This document shows, piece after piece, positions 7,013 through 28,754 of a stretch of 42,975 bases of DNA; the stretch's first letter is position 1, and each line of letters opens with the position of its first letter. The stretch lies in the NCBI GenBank assembly GCA_016287095.1, contig JAEEVK010000017.1, positions 1 to 42,975 of the forward strand. The letters run 5' to 3'. The position numbers were made by a program, and so were the translations under genes. Below the pieces are notes generated by a model. The model was not told the origin of the DNA and made no database searches. It worked only from the letters and a program-made list of their open reading frames with translations. Source of the DNA: Lachnospiraceae bacterium (lineage in GTDB: Bacteria; Bacillota; Clostridia; Lachnospirales; Lachnospiraceae).

Positions 7013-7055
7013 TAAAGTTGGTGCATTAGGAATTGGGTTATAATTGGCGGATAAA

Positions 7056-8111
7056 ATGGATATATTACAGTTTTACACTTTAATTGAATATTGCAGGAAT
7101 AAGAGGACTTTTATACAGACTCATAACATTCCTGACCCCGATGCCATAGGCTCAGCTTATGGCCTTAAAAAGTTACTCAAGCATTACGGATTGAACACTA
7201 CTATCTGTTATGACGGTGAACTTGACAGGATCAGTGCTGCGAAGATGCTGGATATGTTTGGTATTGAGATGTACGCTATCAGCGAGTTTGCAGACACGAT
7301 GTCCGATGACGACTGTATCATATGTATCGATACCCAGAAAAAGGCCGGTAATGTCTCCGACCTTAACGGTAATGATGTAGCGGTCATTGATCATCACCCT
7401 GAAGTTGATTATTCAATGACATATAAATATTTATATAAAGACATAAGAAAAGTGGGCTCTTGCTGTTCACTCATTGCTCAGTATTTTCAAGAGCTTGAGA
7501 TCGAGCCCAGTTCAGATACTGCTACTGTTCTGCTCCATGGTTTAAAGATGGACACGCTGCAGTTTACAAGAGGTGTTACAAGGACAGACATTGAGATGTT
7601 TGCATATCTTCATGATTATGCTGACGATGATAAATTAAAGAGTCTCGAAGTAAGCGGTATCATATTTAACGACTTAAAAACATACAGCGCAGCAATAAAT
7701 AACATTCATGTATTTGATTATCTTGGGATTTCCTATATACCTTTCCCATGTCCCGACTCTCTGGTTTCCATGGTGGCAGACTTTATCATGTCATTAAAAG
7801 AGATCGAGGTTGCAGTTGTTTACAATGTAAGACCTGACGGTCTGAAGTTTTCCGTTCGTTCCGAGCGTAGAGAGGTTGATGCCGGAGTACTCGTCTCCGC
7901 TGCTCTTTCCGGACTAGGCAGTGGCGGCGGCCACGCAGCTATGGCCGGCGGCAGGATCAAATCCCAGAGGCTTTCGGAGTTAGGACCGTTCAGAGAGCAC
8001 TTTATAAACGACAGATTTATGAAAATGCTCGGTATTTCCAACAAACGAAGCATCAGACAGTCATTGTTACCGACTACCAATACGACTTTTGATATTAAAC
8101 CTTTAACATAA
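7056..8111 (+). CDS. DHH/DHHA1 phosphoesterase, NrnA-like
   Basis: A two-domain phosphoesterase of the group that includes NrnA, which degrades very short RNAs (including pGpG, the linear product of c-di-GMP) and pAp. Metal-site motifs of the DHH domain are present: HNIPDPDAIGS (His23, Asp27, Asp29), CIDTQ (Asp92) and VIDHHP (Asp112-His-His). The C-terminal DHHA1 domain has the substrate-binding GSGGGHAAMAGG. At about 351 residues it is somewhat longer than typical NrnA (310-320). ATG 7056 is preceded by GGCGG at 5 bases; a TTG at 7044 would add four residues and cannot be excluded. It has its own promoter and terminator, so it is monocistronic. The NrnA activity is inferred from motifs; other DHH specificities are possible. 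Confidence 0.8.
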   Translation: MDILQFYTLIEYCRNKRTFIQTHNIPDPDAIGSAYGLKKLLKHYGLNTTICYDGELDRISAAKMLDMFGIEMYAISEFADTMSDDDCIICIDTQKKAGNVSDLNGNDVAVIDHHPEVDYSMTYKYLYKDIRKVGSCCSLIAQYFQELEIEPSSDTATVLLHGLKMDTLQFTRGVTRTDIEMFAYLHDYADDDKLKSLEVSGIIFNDLKTYSAAINNIHVFDYLGISYIPFPCPDSLVSMVADFIMSLKEIEVAVVYNVRPDGLKFSVRSERREVDAGVLVSAALSGLGSGGGHAAMAGGRIKSQRLSELGPFREHFINDRFMKMLGISNKRSIRQSLLPTTNTTFDIKPLT

Positions 8112-8152: not shown

Positions 8153-11100
8153 TTATCCAAGACTCGTACCGAAGAAGTCTTCAAATGACATCTGGTCGGT
8201 CTTTGGCAGATTATCAAGTATACCCAGATCAGCCATGATCTCAATCATCGAATCTCCAACCTTAGCCTTTGATTTAAAGTCCTGACGTGATACAAACTTG
8301 TATCTGGACGAAGCATCTTCTATCTGCTCAGCAGCCTTTTCACCGAGACCATTGATGGTTGAGAGTGAAGGCATAAGCTTTCCGTCTATTATCTGGAAAT
8401 GTCTGGCCTTGGCCTTATATATATCGATAGGCATAAACTCAAAGCCTCTCTCATAAAACTCGAGTACCAGACGCATATCATCGTACATACCCGATTCCTT
8501 AGCTGATAACTTCGAAGTCTTAGCTTTATCATTAAGCTTTTTCATCTCAGATTTTAGATGATCTCTGCCCTTACACATCAGTGCATAATCAAAGTCTGAC
8601 GCTCTGATACTAAAGAAAGCACAATAATATGCCAGAGGATAATAAACCTTGAAATGTGCTATACGGAAAGCCATGATCATGTACGCACAGGCGTGAGCCT
8701 TAGGAAACATATACTTTATCCTCTTACATGACTCTATATACCATGCAGGCACATCATTAGCTATCATTTCCTCTTCCATCTCAGGAGTAAGTCCCTTACC
8801 TTTACGTACCGACTCCATGATCTTAAATGCATGTCCGGGCTCCAGACCCTTATTTATCAGATAGATCATGATATCATCACGTGTACAAATAGCCGTGGAC
8901 AGTGTACAGTCACCGTTTTTGATGAAATACTGCGCATTGTTCAGCCATACATCGGTACCGTGTGACAGACCGGATATCTTAACCATGTCAGAGAATGACT
9001 GCGGTTTTGTATCCTTAAGCATCTGTATAACGAAATTCGTACCAAGCTCGGGAAGTCCTAAACTACCAAGTTCTACACCGTCAATCTGCTCGGGTTTAAC
9101 CCCCAGTACATCACATGAATCAAACAGAGATATTACCTTCGGATCATCCATAGGTATCTTTTTAGCATCGATACCGGTCAGATCCTCCAGCATTCTGATC
9201 ATGGTCGGATCATCGTGACCGAGGATATCGAGCTTTAACAGGTTATGATCGATACTGTGGTATTCAAAATGCGTTGTAACAGTCGGCGTAGTCATATCGT
9301 TTGCCGGATGCTGTATGGGAGTAAATGAATAAATATTTTCTCCCAAAGGAAGAACTACGATACCGCCGGGATGCTGACCTGTGGTACGTCTTACGCCTTC
9401 GCAGCCCTTAGCTATTCTTTCTTTCTCGGCATCTCTTAATACCATACCATGCTCTTCGCAGTATTTTGAAACCAAGCCGTAAGCTGTTTTTTCTGCCAAA
9501 GCACCCATGGTACCGGCTCTGTAGGTCTGACCTGCGCCAAAGATAACTTCGGTGTAGTCATGAGCCTTACTCTGGTATTCACCCGAGAAGTTAAGGTCGA
9601 TATCAGGCTCCTTATCACCGTTAAATCCCAAGAAGGTTTCAAACGGGATATTCTGGCCCTCTCTTACCAGCCTGTGACCGCATACAGGGCAGTCCTTTTC
9701 AGGCAGGTCATATCCGGACTTTGAAACATATTCCTTACATATTTCAGAATCAAACTCACTGTAATGGCACTCCGGACAATAATAATGCGGAGGCAGCGGA
9801 TTTACTTCCGTAATACCGGACATAGTAGCTACAAAGGACGAACCGACCGATCCACGGGAACCAACCAGGTATCCGTCCTCGTTAGATTTCCAAACAAGCT
9901 TCTGGGCTATGATGTACATTACTGCGAATCCGTTTTTGATAATGGAATCAAGTTCGTGCTCCAGACGGCTGCTAACCTGTACCGGCAGATCAGGACCGTA
10001 AATCTGATGAGCTCTTGTCTCACAGATATCACGTAGGGTTTTATCGGAATCAGGGATAACCGGCGGTGCCTTATCAGGTCTGACCGGAGTTATCCTTTCA
10101 CACATATCAAAAATACGGTTAGGATTGGTAACAACTACCTCAAAAGCTTTATCCTTTCCGAGATAGCTGCATTCTTCAAGCATTTCTTCTGTAGTATGTA
10201 AATAAAGAGGCGCCTGCTTATCTGCATCTTCAAAGCCCTTGGAATGCATTATGATCCTACGGTATATTTCATCCTCAGGATTTAGAAAATGCACATCGTT
10301 TGTAGCGATACACATTTTCCCGTCAGCATCGGCCAGATCAACGATCCTCTTGTTTATCCTTCTTAAGTCGTTTTCATTCTGTACCTCAGGGAATTTTTCG
10401 CTTTCGATCATGTAAGCGTTATTTCCTATCTGCTGTATCTCATAATAATCATAAAAATCAGCAATACGCCTAATCTCACTCTCAGGCTTTTCATGTACGA
10501 TAGCCCTGTAAAGCTCACCGGCCTCACAGGCAGATCCTACGATTATACCTTCGCGGTTTTCCTTAAGCAGACTCTTAGGGATTCTAGGCCATCTTCCGAA
10601 ATAAGTCAGATGGGACTCTGAAACCAGTTTATACAGATTTATTCTTCCTGTATCATTTTTGCATAGCAGAATAATATGGTTAGAAGGCATTTTTCTTAAA
10701 TCTTCTACGCTGTATTTACCGTCTTCCTGCTTATAAAATGTATGTCCTTTATCATTAGTAACACTGTCGGGTTCATCATCAACGATATATCCCTCACAGC
10801 CGTAAATGATCTTAAATTCCTTTGCACGTTTCTGCATCTCGGGATCCTTCATCTTTTTAGGCTCGAGAGCATGATTTGCTATAGGGAATGACTGTACAAC
10901 ACCATGATCGGTGATAGCGATACCTCTGTGTCCCCACTCAAATGCTTTCTTTACCAAAACATCTGCAGGTATAACACCGTCCATATCGCTCATCTGAGTA
11001 TGTGCATGCAGCTCAACACGCTTTATTTCGGCGTTATCCATCCTCTTTACACGGAAATCAGAAATAGGCTTAACACCTCTGATCCTCTGGATGGTGGTCT

Positions 11101-12145
11101 CTTTGGTTATTTCAAAATTATCGTTTTCAGCGATACCACGGATAATAAAGAACTTGCCTTCCTTTATGTTCGAAGTGATAAGCTCCTTATCTTCTTCTGT
11201 CCTTAAGAAGAATTTACAAAGAATGGTATCGGTAAAGTCAGTTAGACTGAATTTAAACAGGAAAAATCCGCCCTTTGTCGTAATTAGGTCGTATACTCTA
11301 AGTACCATACCTTTTATTACAACGTCACCCATGTTATCGATGATATCTTTGATGGCAACAACATCACCCTCTACAGTAGTACCGTAAATAACATCGGGAT
11401 CCTTAGGAGTAAGCTTTTTCTTGACAAACTTGGACTTATCAAAGCCTTCCTTGCCCTTTTTATCAGAGCTCTTGCTCTCTTTAGAATCTTCTTTTGATTC
11501 TTTACCGTCTGCTTTTTCTTTACCTGCTTCGTCATCAGTATTATCTGATGCTGCTTCTTCACTTTCAGCAGCATGAACAGATTTTGCAGAGATATAATTA
11601 TCCATCGCTATAAGATAATCATCATGTTCATTCTCTGAATCATCCGACTTTTCTTCAGCCTTATATGTAAAGCTTAAAGTAACCTTAAGTCCAAAATAAT
11701 CATCCAGGAATCTCGTGATTATCTCGCTAAGTCTTTTTTCTATTTCATGATTTATAAAATTATCATCAAGCTCGATATTTAATTCGTTTTCATTAACCGA
11801 TATTACAGAATTACGATAGATGCTTTCAAGCAATCCGGAAGTATTTGTAAATTCATCCTCAACATATATTCCGTACTTTTTCCAGATATCAGGAAAACTC
11901 ATATCTTCAAACTTATATCTGATATGAAGGTTTACATTCTTATTATCAGGCTCAAAAAACTGCTTAAAAAGATGTTCCTCCATTTTTCTTCTGTCATCGG
12001 CCTTGATAAACTTGTCAGAATCAACATAAACATCCATCCTGGCATGAGTATCACTGCTTGTGATGTTTGTAACACTTATATTTTCAAAGATCTTTTTTAA
12101 TCGATCTTCGACCTTTAAATCTTCAAAAACCTCAAAGAAAAACAT
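8153..12145 (-). CDS. polC: DNA polymerase III alpha subunit, PolC type, without the exonuclease domain
   Basis: The leading-strand replicase of Firmicutes. In order: N-terminal domain (about 1-190), a Lys/Glu/Ser-rich linker (195-245), OB fold (255-360), PHP domain (375-465 and 490-690) with His380, His382, Asp413-His414 and NDVH ending at His619, and a zinc finger (CPEC at 790-793, CPVC at 819-822). The polymerase core has Asp848, Asp850 (EPDIDLNFS) and Asp973 (LKLDILG). In PolC a DEDDh 3'-5' exonuclease of about 190 residues normally sits inside the PHP domain after the IYGxEAxLV segment. Here IYGCEGYIVDDEP (447-459) is followed after only about 25 residues by the block MPSNHIILLCKN, and no DxE or HxxxxD exonuclease motif is visible. 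Total length is 1330 instead of about 1430-1500. TGGGGA six bases upstream supports the start. It is the last gene of the isoprenoid/lipid cluster. Confidence 0.95.
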   Translation of the reverse strand: MFFFEVFEDLKVEDRLKKIFENISVTNITSSDTHARMDVYVDSDKFIKADDRRKMEEHLFKQFFEPDNKNVNLHIRYKFEDMSFPDIWKKYGIYVEDEFTNTSGLLESIYRNSVISVNENELNIELDDNFINHEIEKRLSEIITRFLDDYFGLKVTLSFTYKAEEKSDDSENEHDDYLIAMDNYISAKSVHAAESEEAASDNTDDEAGKEKADGKESKEDSKESKSSDKKGKEGFDKSKFVKKKLTPKDPDVIYGTTVEGDVVAIKDIIDNMGDVVIKGMVLRVYDLITTKGGFFLFKFSLTDFTDTILCKFFLRTEEDKELITSNIKEGKFFIIRGIAENDNFEITKETTIQRIRGVKPISDFRVKRMDNAEIKRVELHAHTQMSDMDGVIPADVLVKKAFEWGHRGIAITDHGVVQSFPIANHALEPKKMKDPEMQKRAKEFKIIYGCEGYIVDDEPDSVTNDKGHTFYKQEDGKYSVEDLRKMPSNHIILLCKNDTGRINLYKLVSESHLTYFGRWPRIPKSLLKENREGIIVGSACEAGELYRAIVHEKPESEIRRIADFYDYYEIQQIGNNAYMIESEKFPEVQNENDLRRINKRIVDLADADGKMCIATNDVHFLNPEDEIYRRIIMHSKGFEDADKQAPLYLHTTEEMLEECSYLGKDKAFEVVVTNPNRIFDMCERITPVRPDKAPPVIPDSDKTLRDICETRAHQIYGPDLPVQVSSRLEHELDSIIKNGFAVMYIIAQKLVWKSNEDGYLVGSRGSVGSSFVATMSGITEVNPLPPHYYCPECHYSEFDSEICKEYVSKSGYDLPEKDCPVCGHRLVREGQNIPFETFLGFNGDKEPDIDLNFSGEYQSKAHDYTEVIFGAGQTYRAGTMGALAEKTAYGLVSKYCEEHGMVLRDAEKERIAKGCEGVRRTTGQHPGGIVVLPLGENIYSFTPIQHPANDMTTPTVTTHFEYHSIDHNLLKLDILGHDDPTMIRMLEDLTGIDAKKIPMDDPKVISLFDSCDVLGVKPEQIDGVELGSLGLPELGTNFVIQMLKDTKPQSFSDMVKISGLSHGTDVWLNNAQYFIKNGDCTLSTAICTRDDIMIYLINKGLEPGHAFKIMESVRKGKGLTPEMEEEMIANDVPAWYIESCKRIKYMFPKAHACAYMIMAFRIAHFKVYYPLAYYCAFFSIRASDFDYALMCKGRDHLKSEMKKLNDKAKTSKLSAKESGMYDDMRLVLEFYERGFEFMPIDIYKAKARHFQIIDGKLMPSLSTINGLGEKAAEQIEDASSRYKFVSRQDFKSKAKVGDSMIEIMADLGILDNLPKTDQMSFEDFFGTSLG

Positions 12146-12176: not shown

Positions 12177-13268
12177 TTATAACAATCTTAAAAATTCTTC
12201 CTTAAAAGAAGGTAAAAGCTCCTCTTCTTTTACTTTCTTAATAATCTCACCCTTTTTGAAAATAAGACCTTCTCCTTTGCCGCCGGCGATACCCAGATCC
12301 GCGTCTCTTGCTTCACCGGGTCCGTTAACAACACAGCCCATAACTGCAATCTTTAAATTCTTATTATGAATATTAGCATTATTTTCATACTGTATCTCAT
12401 CGATCATTTTTTGTACTTTTTCAGCGAGACCTATGAGATCTATATTGGTTCTGCCACATGTAGGACAGGATACAAGATTTATGCCGCTCTTCTTTAATCC
12501 AAGACTTGAAAGTATGGATTTACCGGCTTTAACCTCATATATCGGGTCTCCTGTAAGAGATACACGAATGGTATCTCCTATGCCCTCATAAAGTATTACT
12601 CCGATACCTACAGCTGATTTGATACTTCCGGTAGAAACAAGGCCTGTTTCGGTGATACCGACATGCAGCGGATACGGAGTCTTGTCTGCTATCAGCTCAT
12701 GCGCTTTTATAGACATCATAACATCTGAAGATTTAATACTTATAACGATATTGTTAAAATCGAACTTTTCCAGTGCATCCACTTCTTTCAAAGCACTTTC
12801 AACCAGCGCCTCAGGGGTTGTCCCGCCATATTTAGCAACGAGTTCCTTTTCCAAAGAACCACCGTTAACACCAACTCTCAAAGGGATACCGTAGGCTTTG
12901 GCAGCCTCAACTACCTCGTGTACCTTATCCTGAGAGCCGATATTGCCGGGGTTGATCCTGACTTTATCTGCACCGTTTTTAATAGCTTCTATAGCCAGCT
13001 TATAATCGAAATGAATATCAGCAACGAGCGGGATATGGATACCCTTCTTTATTTCAGAAAAAGCCTTTGCAGCCTCCATATGAGGGACAGCACAGCGGAT
13101 GATATCACAGCCCTCTCTCTCAAGGGCATTTATCTGGGCAACGGTAGCTGCCACATCCTCAGTTTTGGTATTACACATAGACTGGATGGCTATGGGATTG
13201 TTAGCGCCTATTGTGACATTACCGATTTTTACTTCTTTGCTATTTCGTCTATTTATATAGTTTTCCAT
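12177..13268 (-). CDS. ispG: 4-hydroxy-3-methylbut-2-en-1-yl diphosphate synthase (flavodoxin), IspG/GcpE
   Basis: The penultimate enzyme of the MEP pathway, converting MEcPP to HMBPP with a 4Fe-4S cluster. The N-terminal TIM barrel is recognised by NPIAIQSMCNTKTED, VPLVADIHFDYKLA-type and KVRINPGNIG segments. The C-terminal iron-sulfur domain carries SCPTCGR and the third cysteine in VMGCVVNGPGEARDADLG. Length (363) is that of the short bacterial form without the plant-type insert. GGAGAA precedes the start at 13268. It lies between rseP and polC; with dxr two genes upstream, this cluster carries two steps of the same pathway. Confidence 0.97.
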   Translation of the reverse strand: MENYINRRNSKEVKIGNVTIGANNPIAIQSMCNTKTEDVAATVAQINALEREGCDIIRCAVPHMEAAKAFSEIKKGIHIPLVADIHFDYKLAIEAIKNGADKVRINPGNIGSQDKVHEVVEAAKAYGIPLRVGVNGGSLEKELVAKYGGTTPEALVESALKEVDALEKFDFNNIVISIKSSDVMMSIKAHELIADKTPYPLHVGITETGLVSTGSIKSAVGIGVILYEGIGDTIRVSLTGDPIYEVKAGKSILSSLGLKKSGINLVSCPTCGRTNIDLIGLAEKVQKMIDEIQYENNANIHNKNLKIAVMGCVVNGPGEARDADLGIAGGKGEGLIFKKGEIIKKVKEEELLPSFKEEFLRLL

Positions 13269-26681: not shown

Positions 26682-28754
26682 TCAACACTTTGTAACAAGG
26701 ATGTCATCAACATAATAATCCGAGTTACCGTCTGTCTCGATAAAGAACTCGGCCGACTGAAGATCCTCAGGCAGCTGTGTGGTAGCAGAAACAAATGTCC
26801 ATCCGCCCTTATTTGAAGGAGTCTCTGATATCCTGCCCTCTTTACTGCCGTCTATACCCATATAGATAAAGTTATCATCAGTCTTTACATAAGCTGTGAT
26901 CGTAACCTTCTGTCCGATATAAGCAGAAATATTAAACTTAACTGTAGCCTCTTTCTCAGCACGTGTAACCTGAAGTGAATGACCTGCTCCGTCCCTGGAC
27001 TCCTTATCGGTAACCTGAAGCATGGGTAGATGTCCGACACCTCTGACTCCGGCGATATTCTTCTTGCCTTCAAAGCCTTCAACCAGACCTATGAGTTTGA
27101 TGCTCACATCATCTACATAAAGAGCGCTGAACTTACCGTCTTCCTCCTCAAGAGTTCCAAAATAGAGGAACATTGAATGAGTATCACCGGGTACAGTATA
27201 GATGCCTTTAACTTCAACAAACTCTTCTTTTCCGCACTCAGCCTCAGCAATCACAGGGAATCCCTCAATATCTGCCCTTATGCAGGCTTTCTTTGCAGGA
27301 GTCCTAACCCATGCGCTAACCTCTATCGTCTGGCCGATAAAGTCAGATACATCAAAGCTTATGCTGCTCCACTCATCAAATCTGATCTCCTGAGCAATGG
27401 CTGTTGTACCGCTGTGTACATATTTATTCTGGAATGATATATGAGCAAATCCTCTGGTCTTAAATCCGTAATCTTCAAGCTTCTGAGGTTCATTGCCCTT
27501 AGGCTCAAAGTCGGCAAACCTGTCCGAAAGATTGATATGTATAACCTCAGGCTCACCGAGTGATTCACCTGTAAGAGCACATTTAAGAGCCAGATATGAT
27601 TTCTTGGGTGAAAGGTCACCGTTAAACAGCAACGGATCGGCTCCTCCCCTGATCCAGGAGTTATCATCGGTAAGGCCCCAGAAGGTAACGCACTTAAGCC
27701 TTGCACCCTCAGAATTTGCCTTAACCAGAGCTTCAAACAGATTCTTATAGAACATAGCCTGGTAATAATACTTATTAATATTTAAACAGGTACATTTAAC
27801 ATCCAGCTCGGTAATGTGTACAACATCTACCAGTTTACTGTAATCCTTGAGTGCCTTTACATACTCTTCAATATTGTTATTATCACTAAGATGTCCCTGC
27901 ATACCGATACCATCGATAAGATTCTCTCCAAGGATGCTGCCGTGTTCATCGGTACGTCTCTCGAGAGCTGCTATGATAGCCTCCTTCTTATCGGGATGGA
28001 ACTCGTTATAATCATTATAGAAAAGCAAGGGCTTGATCTTCTTTAATTCACTGTGAGAATCAGTTGTAATGCCATAATCCGGAGCATATTTTAAAGCGTA
28101 TTCGTCAATAGCCTCTTTTGCAAACTTAAAAGCCCAGTAAATAAAGTCTTCGCCAATGATCTGATACCAATAGCTGTTACGGAGGCCTGTAGGTGTCTTA
28201 TCCATAAGCTCTATGGCCTCGTTTACAACATCCCATGCATAAATGGTGGACGCATAGCCGTTTTTATACATATACTCCATACAGGAACCGATATAGCTCT
28301 TAAGACGCTTGAGCATGGTATCTCTGTCAACAAAACAAACAGGATCAAGCTTCTCAAAGCGCTTCATAAATGGTCTGACCTTTAAGATCTCGGGATCCGT
28401 AGGCACTGTAACTGGCTTATAACCCTTGCAGAAGGCCTCATTAGCACACTGGCTGTGCCAAACAAGAACATGACCTCTTACCTTCATACCGTTATCACGG
28501 GCAAAATCAAGCATACGCTTGGCATTATCATTGATAACGAAAGGAAGATAATCCTCGGTAGCCTCGGCACTGTTCCAGCCCATATTATAAGCAGGCTTAA
28601 GCTCGTTGGCGAAAGTCATGCTGTTAAACTCCTGAAGAATAAGCTTTTCCTTTTCAGGATTACCTATCTCATTGTTGGTAAAGTTATCATGTATGCTTTC
28701 ACAAGCTACACCTATGGTAAAATAATTACTATAGAGCTCTTTTAAGCTGTTCAT
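26682..28754 (-). CDS. GH10 endo-1,4-beta-xylanase with two C-terminal carbohydrate-binding-like modules, no signal peptide
   Basis: A retaining xylanase. The GH10 barrel covers about residues 5-395, with acid/base Glu179 (WDVVNEAI) and nucleophile Glu316 (HITELDVK), plus HVLVWHSQ and the closing FWGLTDDNSW. Two beta-sandwich modules follow (about 405-555 and 560-690), each with the ISAYIGQKVTITAYVKT-type pattern of CBM4/9-like domains. The N-terminus (MNSLKELYSNYF) has no hydrophobic signal, and AGAGGAG with a correct spacer fixes this start, so the enzyme is probably cytoplasmic and acts on imported xylo-oligosaccharides. It has its own promoter; the HD-GYP gene lies upstream and the CE1-like esterase 4.5 kb away could work on the same substrate. 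Confidence 0.9.
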   Translation of the reverse strand: MNSLKELYSNYFTIGVACESIHDNFTNNEIGNPEKEKLILQEFNSMTFANELKPAYNMGWNSAEATEDYLPFVINDNAKRMLDFARDNGMKVRGHVLVWHSQCANEAFCKGYKPVTVPTDPEILKVRPFMKRFEKLDPVCFVDRDTMLKRLKSYIGSCMEYMYKNGYASTIYAWDVVNEAIELMDKTPTGLRNSYWYQIIGEDFIYWAFKFAKEAIDEYALKYAPDYGITTDSHSELKKIKPLLFYNDYNEFHPDKKEAIIAALERRTDEHGSILGENLIDGIGMQGHLSDNNNIEEYVKALKDYSKLVDVVHITELDVKCTCLNINKYYYQAMFYKNLFEALVKANSEGARLKCVTFWGLTDDNSWIRGGADPLLFNGDLSPKKSYLALKCALTGESLGEPEVIHINLSDRFADFEPKGNEPQKLEDYGFKTRGFAHISFQNKYVHSGTTAIAQEIRFDEWSSISFDVSDFIGQTIEVSAWVRTPAKKACIRADIEGFPVIAEAECGKEEFVEVKGIYTVPGDTHSMFLYFGTLEEEDGKFSALYVDDVSIKLIGLVEGFEGKKNIAGVRGVGHLPMLQVTDKESRDGAGHSLQVTRAEKEATVKFNISAYIGQKVTITAYVKTDDNFIYMGIDGSKEGRISETPSNKGGWTFVSATTQLPEDLQSAEFFIETDGNSDYYVDDILVTKC

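Follow-up and report, generated by a model that had tools for sequence, protein, structure and literature searches.

DEDDh-type proofreading is widely taken as the default when bacteria replicate their DNA; PolC is also a drug target. The main text of the survey by Timinskas et al. (PMC3919608, 2013) gives a PHP domain interrupted by a DEDDh exonuclease as the common PolC architecture, found in 86% of PolC; the exonuclease was absent from 6% of PolC and from 16% of the set that pairs PolC with DnaE1, a system the survey called experimentally uncharacterised. These proteins without the exonuclease (hereafter exo-less; those with it, exo+) all came, with one exception, from Clostridia and Negativicutes. 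In two dN-dExo constructs the exonuclease has been cut out of the same loop of the PHP domain, and the polymerase still works. As given in the available text of PMC3656037, 3f2b is a Geobacillus kaustophilus PolC construct without the N-terminal and exonuclease domains, and Staphylococcus aureus PolC lacking the same two domains is a fast polymerase (330 per second); because that construct polymerises, loss of the exonuclease alone need not stop synthesis. In the available text of PMC5636811, PolC of G. kaustophilus departs from the set of nine PHP metal ligands at one position and its site is without exonuclease activity, and DnaE1 of Mycobacterium tuberculosis proofreads via its PHP domain, with nine ligands, no DEDDh domain in the chain and a loop replacing the exonuclease insertion.

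We analysed a window of 42,975 nucleotides of Lachnospiraceae DNA, the whole stretch available to us, which encodes a PolC of the exo-less kind. Like the proteins in the main text of PMC3919608, it has no exonuclease insertion in its PHP domain, and its own genome also carries DnaE1 (a type assigned here from a single DnaE with an intact PHP site, not from a DnaE1/DnaE3 tree). The dN-dExo constructs are man-made, and the G. kaustophilus site has its changed ligand (PMC5636811, available text), whereas the window PolC has all nine. The mycobacterial enzyme differs in being of DnaE1 type rather than PolC, in its long loop and in its demonstrated activity, the window PolC being known from sequence; mycobacteria are also described there as lacking mismatch repair, whereas the exo-less genus has MutS-family matches.

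The original prediction implied that such a protein was new, but the deletion type has been in print since 2013, in the main text of PMC3919608. The string ‘lachnospir’ is absent from that main text, and within the main texts of the open-licence literature we found no publication describing a PolC of this kind from Lachnospiraceae. What the present analysis adds to the main text of PMC3919608 is a tree of separate losses, dead exonucleases still in place, a tally of the PHP site and a survey showing the scarcity of RNase_T domains.

The polC gene and its missing exonuclease

The features of the locus are as follows.

12177..13268, minus strand: ispG, the neighbour upstream of polC
8153..12145, minus strand: polC, PolC-type DNA polymerase III alpha without the DEDDh exonuclease domain (open reading frame, 1330 residues)
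10289..11008, minus strand: PHP metal site, residues 380–619, ligands H380 H382 D389 H414 E451 H490 C540 D617 H619 (HHDHEHCDH; Pfam PF02811, 2.2e-26)
10682..10792, minus strand: short linker replacing the exonuclease, residues 452–488 (37 residues; beta hairpin and short helix predicted)
9218..10039, minus strand: polymerase core with aspartates 848, 850 and 973 (DNA_pol3_alpha match, residues 703–976)
8171..8194, minus strand: C-terminal motif QMSFEDFF, residues 1318–1325, read directly from the sequence

The polC frame contains no internal stops, and its product exceeded the cut-offs of both NCBIfam PolC models (NF001688, 1434.8 bits against 873; TIGR01405, 1332.5 bits against 1043.45). Pfam matches were to NI, NII, PHP, DNA_pol3_alpha, finger and HHH_6. 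The N-terminal NI/NII (PF14480, 1.8e-09) and OB regions before PHP and the C-terminal HhH (PF14579, 5.6e-09) are thus all present; the NII model, PF11490, matched only below its gathering score. Residues 264–1321 aligned with 3f2b in phmmer as one continuous alignment, which took in the OB region and placed NDVH of the window PolC opposite GNVH of G. kaustophilus. The DEDDh insertion of the usual PolC architecture was not found, so membership rests on these other features, as for the exo-less subset already described. The C-terminal motif, which we take to be clamp-binding-like, reads QMSLEDFF in the consensus of 23 exo-less rows.

At the insertion site there are 37 residues in the window PolC and 36–41 in rows from the same genus, compared with 211–215 in 113 exo+ rows, as expected for the clean, in-frame deletion in a working gene that the original prediction had put forward. 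That prediction had also placed His380, His382, Asp413, His414, Asp848, Asp850 and Asp973 at exactly the positions where direct checking finds them, and had estimated at about 25 the residues that separate IYGCEGYIVDDEP from MPSNH, where we count 26. It further held that no exonuclease motif lies elsewhere in the protein. A Pfam scan of the whole protein gave no RNase_T match, and a profile built from 113 PolC exonuclease domains, run with filters off, scored 0.5 bits over the whole protein, inside the range of 50 shuffled control sequences (up to 1.6 bits). Relocation of the exonuclease within the PolC chain was rejected on this score. The 36-residue linker alone scored 7.2 bits (E 0.0096), which we attribute to flanking sequence covered by the profile.

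For the structural reading we used a model of the OB–PHP part (mean pLDDT 89.2, pTM 0.82), whose best PDB match was 3f2b, and not a 1091-residue model, whose polymerase part was of low quality (mean pLDDT 67.2) and whose best PDB match had a TM-score of 0.37. Blocks containing the linker had mean pLDDT 92–96, and the linker was modelled as an ordered hairpin and helix. The PHP domain would therefore, in this model, close across the former insertion site through an ordered 37-residue linker. In the available text of PMC5636811, the loop that receives the PolC exonuclease measures 18 residues in Taq and 9 in E. coli alpha, so exo-less PolC is DnaE-like at this loop.

Distribution and number of losses

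All 24 genus genomes examined carry exo-less PolC, so the deletion is not an assembly error, a possibility that the original prediction had named as fatal to it; named contigs from other projects agree, and an assembly or frame artefact was ruled out. One genome (G003) has, besides its exo-less PolC, the pieces of a second, broken PolC with an intervening RNase_T stretch on another contig (G003:C82:9460-13001), which is probably a contaminant. Among 80 named contigs, ispG lay upstream of polC in 24 of the 27 that are exo-less and in 46 of the 53 that are exo+, and because this synteny is common to both, the two kinds of polC are orthologues. The genome of the window has a single PolC, the exo-less one, and together with the ispG–polC synteny this leaves a second or foreign polC copy without support. 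Many of the exo-less named contigs come from rumen or omasum MAGs of Lachnospiraceae, and the host is a gut bacterium, probably of rumen origin. Two genus genomes encode a second, divergent PolC-like protein (L028, G017:C225:909-3473; L029, G016:C9:16684-18849), in frames of 861 and 739 residues that start at PHP and have neither NTD nor OB nor exonuclease; L028 has degenerate PHP ligands.

Beyond the genus, uninterrupted PHP matches in short frames pointed to exo-less PolC in at least 9 genomes of the order, in families f2, f5 and f19. A sample of the class gave PHP matches at E 1e-30 or better in 345 of 391 genomes; at least 51 of the 345, as well as the window’s own genome, matched the query uninterrupted, and these span at least 12 families besides f1. 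This share fits the 16% reported for the PolC+DnaE1 set in the main text of PMC3919608.

On a polymerase-core tree of 113 rows the exo-less label takes 11 or 12 changes, with a minimum of 6 when only well-supported branches are counted; an order-level tree of 131 rows, built earlier, takes 8, with a minimum of 4. The trees are unrooted; the homology of the inserted domain and its single insertion site lead us to treat the changes as losses. One origin for the 50 exo-less rows in the class tree was rejected (AU p 3.26e-103). A single clade for the 17 exo-less rows of the Lachnospiraceae group was not rejected (p 0.34), so separate losses within the family are unsupported. On these trees, exo-less PolC arose more than once in the class; the mapping that the original prediction proposed places the deletion throughout the genus, with several origins across Clostridia.

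Two family members retain a recognisable exonuclease insert in which the catalytic residues are replaced. In one (G062, L155) the exonuclease profile scores 82.5 bits and the DEDHD positions read SVDGE, four of five changed; in the other (G120, L158) it scores 131.9 bits and they read HMNSC, all five changed. In G120 an ambiguous base divides polC into two frames, and the PHP motifs up to the glutamate lie in the upstream one. These cases suggest that decay of the exonuclease in place can come before its deletion. They are exceptions to a remark in the available text of a 2026 survey (PMC12926913) that inactivation in Pol III alpha spares the DnaQ proofreader.

The PHP metal site as candidate proofreader

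Every one of the 77 exo-less rows has all nine PHP ligands, as do dead-exonuclease row L155 and 127 of the 131 exo-intact rows whose PHP domain could be read; in L092 (exo+) and L158 (dead exonuclease) the site is incomplete because the frame used does not cover all of it. The four exo-intact rows with a broken site are three from one genus of family f22 and L098, which has one ligand changed. Among the 211 rows of the tally we saw no joint loss of exonuclease and PHP site, a pattern expected if one proofreader must be kept. At the exo-intact breakage rate (4/131), 77 rows would contain no broken site with a probability of about 0.09, even before relatedness is taken into account, and PHP conservation in the exo-less rows of this tally is not significantly above that in exo+ relatives. 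Since the ligands are complete in 127 of 131 exo-intact rows too, their conservation may be structural; a metal site kept for structural reasons would give the same tally.

Our reading is that this is an ordinary, orthologous polC that would have lost its DEDDh domain before the genus diversified, in one of several such losses in Clostridia; the zinc PHP exonucleases of PolC and of its partner DnaE1 would most likely proofread, with mismatch repair as backup. Taken whole, we consider this reading probable. The PHP exonuclease itself is, by analogy with mycobacterial DnaE1, the likeliest proofreader, and we lean towards it with moderate confidence; the PolC site may accordingly be catalytically active and serve in this way. 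Of the rescues that the original prediction offered, PHP-domain proofreading is the best supported, by the complete sites of the exo-less PolCs and the intact PHP site in the DnaE1 of the window’s own genome, and it falls short of proof.

A broader proposal, which we put forward tentatively and would not quite favour over its contrary, is that Clostridia repeatedly discard the DEDDh domain of PolC, by decay in place and then deletion, since the zinc PHP exonuclease works; in whole genera, replication would then depend on two polymerases that proofread by PHP, with no exonuclease of DnaQ type, and a converse lineage would keep DEDDh and lose PHP. If true, such a natural either/or set would mean that a single one of the two proofreaders is enough. 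Exo-less lineages in which PolC stays constrained are a natural setting in which to ask whether the PHP domain is a working proofreader, and also what the PolC+DnaE1 system does.

The state with an intact exonuclease and a broken PHP site is seen in genus g210 of f22 (L214, L215 and L217), where the DEDDh residues are intact and the PHP ligands read HHDTTQGNK or HHDTTQGAK. The PolC/DnaE1 distance ratio in this genus is raised relative to exo+ rows (median 1.18 over 15 pairs).

DnaE1, stand-alone exonucleases and selection on PolC

Of 29 genomes searched, 28 gave a DnaE1-type match (the exception being G067). The PHP ligands of DnaE1 were complete in 28 of 30 rows; the remaining two rows are fragments. 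PolC itself was absent from 20 of 40 chosen genomes of the order, 15 of which were also without RNase_T. DnaE1 taken from seven of these 20 had complete PHP ligands in every case, and because five of the seven genomes lacked RNase_T, related bacteria appear to replicate by a PHP-bearing DnaE1 without an RNase_T enzyme. Fourteen of the 20 genomes without a PolC match belong to family f5 (G198, G211, G243, G252, G262, G271, G279, G286, G294, G316, G332, G346, G353 and G359), and 12 of these had no RNase_T match.

PolC might then have been demoted to an accessory polymerase while DnaE1 replicates the chromosome, with PolC loss in related families as the end point. The main text of PMC3919608 raises this possibility, and the intact DnaE1 and the PolC-less genomes of f5, a family that also has exo-less PolC, favour it. 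Selection on PolC speaks against it. Ka/Ks in the polymerase part was 0.02–0.03 in five comparisons, a rough figure with synonymous sites near saturation and several values not computable; by this measure the polymerase is under strong purifying selection. The PolC/DnaE1 distance ratio had a median of 0.72 in exo-less pairs (45 pairs) and 0.78 in exo+ pairs (10 pairs), and ranged from 0.42 to 0.89 in genus pairs, a rough comparison, the genus pairs being closer; it counts weakly against demotion. The clamp-type motif at the C-terminus is retained, as is PolC itself throughout the genus. On balance we regard demotion as unlikely. Decay of PolC was rejected, given the low Ka/Ks and a distance ratio no greater than in exo+ pairs, and the earlier statement that the gene is not decaying, with its frame free of stops, holds.

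A separate DEDDh exonuclease, such as a stand-alone RNase_T protein with a zinc finger, could instead proofread in trans for PolC or DnaE1. Our survey covered PF00929 alone, and DEDDy and unrelated 3′–5′ exonucleases lie outside it. Nine of the 24 genus genomes had PF00929 matches (12 in all), none within the genus-type PolC; eight of the loci (L142, L144–L148, L151 and L153) are mutually close relatives, patchy in the genus, and a C-terminal zinc finger, presumably of topoisomerase type, occurs in at least six of the eight. The main stand-alone type is about 40% identical to PolC exonuclease domains, and the epsilon-binding surface of DnaE1 is said in the main text of PMC3919608 to be conserved in Firmicutes; both would suit activity in trans. 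Against this, PF00929 had no match in the window’s own genome (a MAG, 85% complete) or in 15 of the 24 genus genomes, among them one 100% complete (G006) and one 99% complete and 6% contaminated (G004). RNase_T matches occurred in 146 of 150 family genomes, many in PolC-length frames among the matches listed, and frames of the same size as the stand-alone gene are present in exo+ family members too, which is not what a replacement gene would look like. Excision of the exonuclease into a separate gene is unlikely on the same grounds, the stand-alone gene being patchy and same-size frames occurring in exo+ genomes. A conserved stand-alone DnaQ is thus unlikely as a general rescue, contrary to the second suggestion of the original prediction, and proofreading in trans by a DEDDh enzyme we judge improbable.

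Least probable, and in our view quite improbable, is that replicative proofreading was lost and the lineage relies on base selection and mismatch repair at a raised mutation rate: MutS_V was matched in all 24 genus genomes (its strongest type in 22), which would suit mismatch repair, but the state is old and has arisen more than once, and the PHP site is complete in every exo-less row and broken in four exo+ rows.

Elsewhere in the window, a DHH/DHHA1 protein (7044-8111, plus strand), presumably oligoribonuclease-like, is convergent to polC and was matched in one of 80 relatives’ loci (L065), and a glycosyl hydrolase family 10 protein of 690 residues is encoded at 26682-28754 on the minus strand.
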